A stretch of DNA of 64,000 nucleotides from contig JADZAQ010000082.1 of NCBI GenBank assembly GCA_020852555.1, positions 1-64,000 of the forward strand. Direction: 5' to 3'. Both the position numbers and the translations under genes were made by a program. The stretch comes from Burkholderiales bacterium (GTDB lineage: Bacteria > Pseudomonadota > Gammaproteobacteria > Burkholderiales > Casimicrobiaceae). Shown here in pieces: positions 15,232-16,568 of this stretch (the stretch's first letter is position 1; each line of letters opens with the position of its first letter). Under the pieces are notes generated by a model that was not told where the DNA came from, searched no databases, and saw only the letters and a program-made list of their open reading frames with translations.

Positions 15232-15666
15232 TCACTTGACCGGGTCGAGTGCCTTGGGTTGCTGCGCGGTGTGCGGATGCGCCGGTCCCGCGTAGCACTT
15301 GAGCTTCTTCAGCATCGCATAGCCGAGCGGACCCTTGGGGAGCATGCCGCGCACGGCCGTTTCCAGCGCGCGTCCGGGGAAGCGGGACTGCATCTTGGCG
15401 AAGCTGGTCGTCGTGATCCCGCCCGGATACCCCGAGTGGCGATGATAGAGCTTGTCCTCGGCCTTGGCGCCGGTGACGCGCAGCTTTTCGACGTTGGTGA
15501 CGACGATGAAGTCGCCGGTGTCCACGTGCGGGGTGTAGATCGCCTTGTGCTTGCCGCGCAGGCGCAGCGCGATCTGGCTCGCGAGGCGGCCCAATACCTG
15601 GTCGGTCGCGTCGACGACGTACCAGTCCCGCACGACGTCGGCGGGCTTGGCGGAGAAGGTCTTCAT
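15232..15666 (-). CDS. rplM: 50S ribosomal protein L13 (uL13)
   Basis: [41 protein letters not shown]...[23 protein letters not shown] at 15666. Confidence 0.97.
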
Positions 15667-15873: not shown

Positions 15874-15912
15874 AAAAAAAGAGGGCGGAGTCCGTAGACC
15901 TCGCCCTCGAGG
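15874..15912 (-). terminator. intrinsic terminator on the minus strand, not following any annotated gene
   Basis: Minus strand CTCGAGGGCGAGGTCTACGGACTCCGCCCTCTTTTTTT: GAGGGCG/CGCCCTC stem followed by seven T. Confidence 0.65.
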
Positions 15913-16080
15913 ATTCCACCATAGGAGGAGAATGGAGGAATGGGTCCGCGGTGCTGATGGAGGAGTACGGCGAAGCCGCGAACGTGCGAATCATCGCATA
16001 TTGCGCCGCACAATGCAACTGGCATATGTGGCGCCGCAGCAAATGAATCGCGGCGTGCTGGCGGCACTTGGAGTGTGGGC
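15880..16080 (-). ncRNA. candidate small RNA with anti-Shine-Dalgarno motifs
   Basis: Gap between rplM and osmC: minus strand has TATAGT (16090-16085), several CUCCUCC-like motifs (TACTCCTCCATC, ATTCCTCCATTCTCCTCCTAT), an imperfect hairpin (15986-16051) and the terminator at 15874-15912. 5' end not determined. Confidence 0.4.
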
Positions 16081-16121
16081 GCTCACTATATCCAAACATC
16101 ACTCGTTACGCGGAGATCGGT

Positions 16122-16568
16122 ATGAAGACACGGGTCAAATGGCTGGAGGGGGCGAGCTTCGTCGGCGAATCCGGCAGTGGGCACACCGTGGTGCTCGACG
16201 GCGCTCCCGAGAACGGCGGGCGCAACACCGGCATGCGGCCGATGGAGATGCTGCTGACCGGCGCTGCGGCGTGCACCGCGTACGACGTGGTGACGATCCT
16301 GCGCAAGGGGCGTCAGCCGGTCGAGGACGTGGTGGTGACGATCGAGGGCACCCGCGCCGCCGCGAGCCCGCGGGTCTTTACTGCACTGCACTATGTTTAT
16401 CGGGTCGCCGGCCATGGCCTCGACCGGCGGGCCGTCGAACGCGCGGTCGAATTGTCGAAGGAGAAGTACTGCTCGGCGACGATCATGCTCGGCAAGACCG
16501 CGACCATCACCTACGAGGTCGAACTCGTCGACGGTACGCGCATCCCGGCGCCCGCTGCGCCGACCTGA
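16122..16568 (+). CDS. OsmC family protein
   Basis: MKTRVKWLEGASFVGESGSGHTVVLDGAPENGG...GMRPMEMLLTGAAACTAYDVVTILRKGR. Confidence 0.9.
   Translation: MKTRVKWLEGASFVGESGSGHTVVLDGAPENGGRNTGMRPMEMLLTGAAACTAYDVVTILRKGRQPVEDVVVTIEGTRAAASPRVFTALHYVYRVAGHGLDRRAVERAVELSKEKYCSATIMLGKTATITYEVELVDGTRIPAPAAPT

Follow-up and report, generated by a model that had tools for sequence, protein, structure and literature searches.

The window, a stretch of 64,000 nucleotides from a Burkholderiales bacterium of the family Casimicrobiaceae, contains a gap between rplM (L13, PF00572 by Pfam match; 15232 to 15666, minus strand) and an osmC-family gene (PF02566, 59.4 bits by Pfam; 16122 to 16568, plus strand). Within this gap we predict an sRNA gene of about 110 nt on the minus strand (15874 to 15985, 5' end ± 3 nt), which is divergent from osmC, lies ahead of rplM and falls in a block conserved in relatives. 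Between it and rplM, a promoter scan placed the promoter-like sequence TTGACC-18-TACAAT (15815 to 15786, minus strand), which is likely to be the rplM-rpsI promoter. The initial annotation had read a terminator, pyrimidine motifs and a TATAGT hexamer (16090 to 16085) in the gap, and all of these letters are present; on the minus strand they include GAGGGCGAGGTCTACGGACTCCGCCCTC followed by T7 (15909 to 15874), UACUCCUCCAUC (15967 to 15956) and AUUCCUCCAUUCUCCUCCUAU (15941 to 15921).

The anatomy of the gene is supported by an oriented alignment of 22 relatives, in which four pieces are conserved. The promoter piece reads TTGCATTGTGCGGCGCAATATGC-GATGAT on the minus strand. It holds a -35 element TTGCAT (16013 to 16018), which is kept in nearly all of the 22 relatives, and, after a spacer of 17 bp, a -10 element GATGAT (15990 to 15995) with A2 in 21 and T6 in all 22. 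The promoter TTGCAT-17-GATGAT thus spans 16018 to 15990 and is conserved across the relatives. We placed the 5' end about 7 nt past the -10, following the precedent of S17 (PMC11722255). The transcript would thus start near 15985 and be about 110 nt long, rather than the up to about 200 nt first suggested. TATAGT, previously taken as the -10, lies beyond the conserved block and was ruled out as the sRNA promoter. Likewise, the conserved part of the 'imperfect hairpin' proposed upstream proved to be the DNA dyad within TTGCATTGTGCGGCGCAATATGC, which belongs to the promoter and not to the RNA.

The sRNA is predicted to fold at -41.6 kcal/mol into three hairpins, which covariation supports and two of which carry CUCCUCC loops. 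Hairpin I (15944 to 15983, minus strand) presents UACUCCUCCAUC as an anti-Shine-Dalgarno (anti-SD) loop, CUCCUCC; six of its seven pairs have changed on both sides, and it is specific to the window's lineage. Hairpin II (15913 to 15941, minus strand), with an AUUCC-UCCAU stem and a UUCUCCUCCUA loop, is the S17/NcS27-type core; it is nearly invariant in relatives and corresponds to the third conserved piece, AUUCCUCCAUUCUCCUCCUAUGGUGGAAU (15941 to 15913, minus strand). The intrinsic terminator (15874 to 15909, minus strand) has its stem at 15909 to 15881, followed by U7, and six of its eight pairs have changed on both sides. Neither the real sRNA promoter nor this terminator was picked up by a consensus scan, but the latter is evident from both fold and covariation. 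The C/U-rich single-stranded stretches of the RNA are UACUCCUCC, AUUCCUCC and UUCUCCUCC.

The block from 16018 to 15876 was found by BLAST in 24 of 61 related genomes and by a covariance model in 43 of 60 family genomes. Of the 24 BLAST-positive genomes, 18 belong to the genus, which counts 22 with the own genome. Among the aligned relatives a core of 28 nt is almost invariant. Double-sided changes occur in 13 of the 22 base pairs; none of 500 shuffles did as well, and no slid structure equalled the observed covariation. Conservation in the gap follows the RNA pairs and the promoter letters, not codons, so coding constraint on the plus strand does not account for it. Conservation, covariation, synteny and homology to characterized RNAs therefore uphold the original proposal of an anti-SD sRNA on the minus strand of the rplM-osmC gap, whereas its promoter, 5' end and size had to be revised. 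The proposal had also overlooked the kinship with a described RNA family and the resemblance of the upstream dyad to a PhaR operator.

At the gathering score, Rfam returned a tRNA as the sole match in the window. Against RF02278, the Rfam family of Betaproteobacteria toxic small RNAs, the sRNA scored 20.6 bits over 15940 to 15876, and as the gathering score is 50 it is not a member by the Rfam rule; three loci of the comparison set (L010, L013, L020) scored 33 to 35 bits, and five tested sRNAs of named Betaproteobacteria 68 to 75 bits. Nevertheless, the window sRNA has the architecture of RF02278, i.e. anti-SD stretches, a short hairpin with an anti-SD loop, and a terminator hairpin with a U-run. 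It also occupies the orthologous slot, as Cupriavidus, Burkholderia, Ralstonia, Pandoraea, Limnobacter and others have osmC, sRNA and rplM arranged and oriented in this way. A pattern scan of named genomes gave at least 120 matches, and those listed include the RF02278-type sRNAs of Bordetella, Achromobacter, Burkholderia, Cupriavidus, Ralstonia, Pandoraea and others. From its position, core and architecture, and despite the sub-threshold score, we conclude that the window sRNA is a diverged orthologue or subfamily of the S17/NcS27 RNAs with an extra 5' anti-SD hairpin. The own genome contains no copy of the S17-type pattern CTCCTCCA-N2/3-CTCCTCCT, and thus no second classical S17-type RNA was found there.

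The promoter of the sRNA carries PhaR-like operators, PhaR being the regulator that senses carbon stored as PHB. We scored them with a weight matrix built from 68 sites located 5' of phaR and phasin genes only, in the own and related genomes. Operator 1 (15996 to 16016, core TGCGCCGCA at 16002 to 16010, 15.5 bits) lies in the promoter spacer, and is found in 22 of 22 relatives, 61 to 70 nt ahead of the RNA core. Operator 2 (16024 to 16044, 15.2 bits) lies upstream of operator 1, with 28 bp between the two centres. A second PhaR-like site, at -88 to -101, occurs in about half of the relatives; elsewhere in the family, other genera have two such sites 26 to 28 bp apart. The dyad core TGCRNYGCA equals the core of the PhaR operators published for Ralstonia eutropha (YTKNTGCRNYGCANMAR; PMC12849132) and for Herbaspirillum (TG[N]TGC[N]3GCAA; PMC3206438), with mismatches in the flanks; both operators have the form of the PhaR regulon, TGC-RNY-GCA with TT/AA flanks. 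A third site, inside osmC codons (16376 to 16396), has the highest score of the window, 18.7 bits; it is common only to the closest relative, L002, and its meaning is uncertain. The top three scores of the 64 kb (18.7, 15.5 and 15.2) thus lie within 401 bp around the sRNA gene, and the fourth is 2.8. In the 1.34 Mb (about 35%) of the own genome that was screened, from a fragmented assembly of 282 contigs, only two phaR-phaP promoter sites score higher. PhaR itself is encoded in this genome by a frame of 200 aa on contig C90 (PF07879, E 1.7e-29).

The dyad accompanies the RNA family well beyond the window. Among the matches listed, 78 of 113 named S17-family cores have TGCRNYGCA in the 230 nt that precede them, compared with 99 of 3383 background windows (2.9%; p = 2e-81). 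In at least 61 S17-type loci of named Betaproteobacteria the dyad, with consensus TTCTTGCRNYGCACMAA, itself forms the -35 and is followed after 17 bp by a -10 with A2 and T6. Matrix scores above the 99th background percentile were obtained, again among the matches listed, in 77 of 101 genomes with PhaR and in 1 of 15 without it; the 24 PhaR-containing genomes under the threshold include Burkholderia, Cupriavidus and Ralstonia, and many of the 24 have a weaker CGCARTGCA just ahead of the -35. Within the family, the sRNA occurs in 39 of 45 members with PhaR, while all 11 sampled genomes of one genus (g6) lack both. Four family MAGs and a named MAG, L149, have the sRNA and no PhaR match, perhaps because these MAGs are incomplete. 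Genomes without PhaR are mostly without the dyad or without the sRNA, and where they have the sRNA it is mostly away from osmC and rplM. These counts are not independent, as the PhaR-less genomes are phylogenetically clustered and represent few independent events.

Promoters of other kinds were also seen. Twelve loci, from Thiobacillus/Hydrogenophilales and similar genomes, have RF02278-type sRNAs without the PhaR dyad, and the named genomes among them have no PhaR match. A palindrome common to their sRNA promoters, AATATTAGANAATNCTAATAAC, covers the -10, which suggests that another regulator may have replaced PhaR there. At four further loci (L004, L013, L019, L022), strong PhaR-like sites (15.5 to 25 bits) follow the sRNA terminator on the rplM side, at +67 to +84 relative to the core.

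A second anti-SD double-hairpin RNA, CTGTATCNNN-CTCCTCCTCCTGA-NNNGATACAG plus terminator, is located directly 3' of a phasin gene in most congeners. In the own genome it lies on contig C90 (about 16570 to 16495, minus strand); we also found it at 13 other loci, with two tandem copies in L026 and L029. Against Rfam it remained under the cut-offs. Upstream of many copies stands CTTGAAA-N13/16-CCCCA, similar by eye to a heat-shock sigma32 promoter; in L043, L336 and the second L029 copy, PhaR-like dyads stand in its place.

We propose that the window encodes a trans-acting S17/NcS27-type sRNA of about 110 nt that is repressed by PhaR, induced by PHB and dampens carbon uptake by masking SD sequences, and we consider this account probable. 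One could instead suppose that the sRNA is of this type and that the PhaR sites serve the divergent osmC gene, the sRNA being under other control. Both operators are indeed also 5' of osmC and may be shared with it, and the third PhaR-like site is within osmC. On the other hand, in the at least 61 S17-type loci the dyad is the sRNA -35 at its fixed distance from the -10, and in Bordetella, where osmC is more than 1 kb away, the dyad stays by the sRNA. We therefore regard exclusive control of osmC as unlikely. We think it similarly improbable that a regulator other than PhaR recognizes TGC-N3-GCA here. G018 and L149 retain the site without a PhaR match, which would fit such a regulator, but the training set of the matrix consisted of phaR and phasin promoters from this genome and its relatives, and the sites agree with published PhaR motifs, of which some have been footprinted.

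The same letters could also be a 5' leader or attenuator of rplM-rpsI, with the terminator ending a ribosomal-protein leader. The terminator is on the same strand, 208 nt ahead of rplM, and rplM adjoins the sRNA in many genera. We set this reading aside as very unlikely: there is a separate promoter-like site between the terminator and rplM, and rplM is absent from the locus region examined in Bordetella, Achromobacter and other Alcaligenaceae. Furthermore, experiments established S17 as a stand-alone trans-acting RNA that acts on the SD region (PMC11722255), and NcS27 is regarded as a stand-alone trans-acting RNA too (PMC5688073). That the locus is silent, its terminator and pyrimidine repeats resembling an sRNA by chance, has a negligible likelihood in view of the conservation, the covariation, the promoter and the experimentally proven relatives.

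In our model, the PhaR-repressed sRNA is transcribed from a sigma70-type promoter whose spacer holds a PhaR operator, often accompanied by another one upstream. When no PHB is stored, PhaR bound to the spacer site would block RNA polymerase and the sRNA would be off. When PHB granules form, PhaR would be titrated onto them, as described for phaP1 in R. eutropha (PMC12849132), and the sRNA would be made. Its C/U-rich stretches may then pair with purine-rich SD regions and block translation. We hypothesize that the main targets are mRNAs of periplasmic solute-binding proteins and other carbon-uptake and catabolic genes, so that further carbon uptake would be dampened. Hfq binding, RNase E processing and target repression have been demonstrated for S17 only, which represses translation of BP2158 (PMC11722255); for the window sRNA, we infer that Hfq is used as well.

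The target screen agrees with this model at the level of gene classes. Solute-binding proteins (DctP, TctC, SBP) account for 10 of the 25 best SD matches and for 1 of 20 SD-matched controls (one-sided p = 0.007), and they are also among the named targets of S17 (PMC11722255). This functional class was the sole target signal that stood out. The screen was crude: it covered genes with an SD in the 1.34 Mb (about 35%) of the genome, with starts called by a simple script. When the sRNA was shuffled with its core preserved, long ungapped complementarity to SDs was at least as frequent, and in a search by duplex energy G+C-rich stems swamped the result. Given the absent excess and the crude gene calls, the targets are class-level guesses.

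PhaR-type operators at the promoter make PhaR a likely controller for the widespread S17/NcS27 family. The S17 promoter, PS17, needs no activator, and a repressor has been speculated to exist (PMC11722255); based on the dyad at S17-type promoters and its co-distribution with PhaR, we suggest PhaR as a candidate for this repressor. We lean, with less assurance, towards a broader hypothesis: the whole Betaproteobacterial S17/NcS27 family may be a PHB-sensing arm of the PhaR regulon that shuts off translation of carbon-uptake genes, PhaR (or its PHB state) being the PS17 repressor and the RNA 3' of the phasin gene belonging to the same circuit here.

RNAs of this kind are widely conserved in Burkholderiales, including Cupriavidus, Burkholderia, Bordetella and Ralstonia, and had already been described; the proposed control by PhaR is what is new in this analysis. 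The regulation of NcS27 was left open (PMC5688073), and a review in 2021 called riboregulation of PHB in Cupriavidus undeciphered (PMC8401924). If our model is true, PhaR operators would tie a broad translational repression of nutrient uptake to stored carbon. Among the papers covered by our literature search, none was found to link PhaR to the S17/NcS27 family, and earlier recognition of the motif is possible. The 'common upstream motif' that PMC5688073 assigns to a supplementary figure may be the PhaR-like dyad.

The closest known systems include S17/S17S of Bordetella pertussis and the NcS27/bdhR1 RNAs. S17 shares with the window sRNA the C/U-rich anti-SD core, the hairpin and terminator, and a -35 TTGCAT with a 17-bp spacer (PMC11722255), and S17-family promoters of other Bordetella species carry the same dyad. 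However, S17 is cut by RNase E from a 190-nt precursor to 67 nt, whereas the window sRNA has its promoter near the core and one more anti-SD hairpin, and the PhaR dyad overlaps the -35 in S17-type loci but lies in the spacer here. The NcS27/bdhR1 double-hairpin RNAs of RF02278 likewise have two anti-SD stretches flanking a short hairpin, a terminator and, at L103, the osmC-rplM location. Overexpression of NcS27 attenuates growth, SD regions of uptake and catabolic genes are its predicted targets, and RNAs of its type are commoner in glucose medium (PMC5688073). The window sRNA differs from them in its stem letters and in having one more 5' hairpin, which brings a third anti-SD loop. The alphaproteobacterial ar14 RNA (RF02344) also has three hairpins with CCUCCUCC loops; at 22.2 bits, a weak overall match, the window sRNA is below its cut-off of 58.8, and we treat this as a resemblance of design. 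Last, MmgR (alpha-r8) of Sinorhizobium meliloti is an sRNA tied to PHB whose promoter dyad is repressed by PhaR/AniA (PMC12542648, PMC8401924). MmgR is alphaproteobacterial, its reported targets are phasins, and the window sRNA scores 13.5 bits against a cut-off of 41. PhaR/AniA-MmgR is a functional parallel and not a homologue, and, if our model is true, PhaR and the window sRNA would be the counterpart of that alphaproteobacterial pair.
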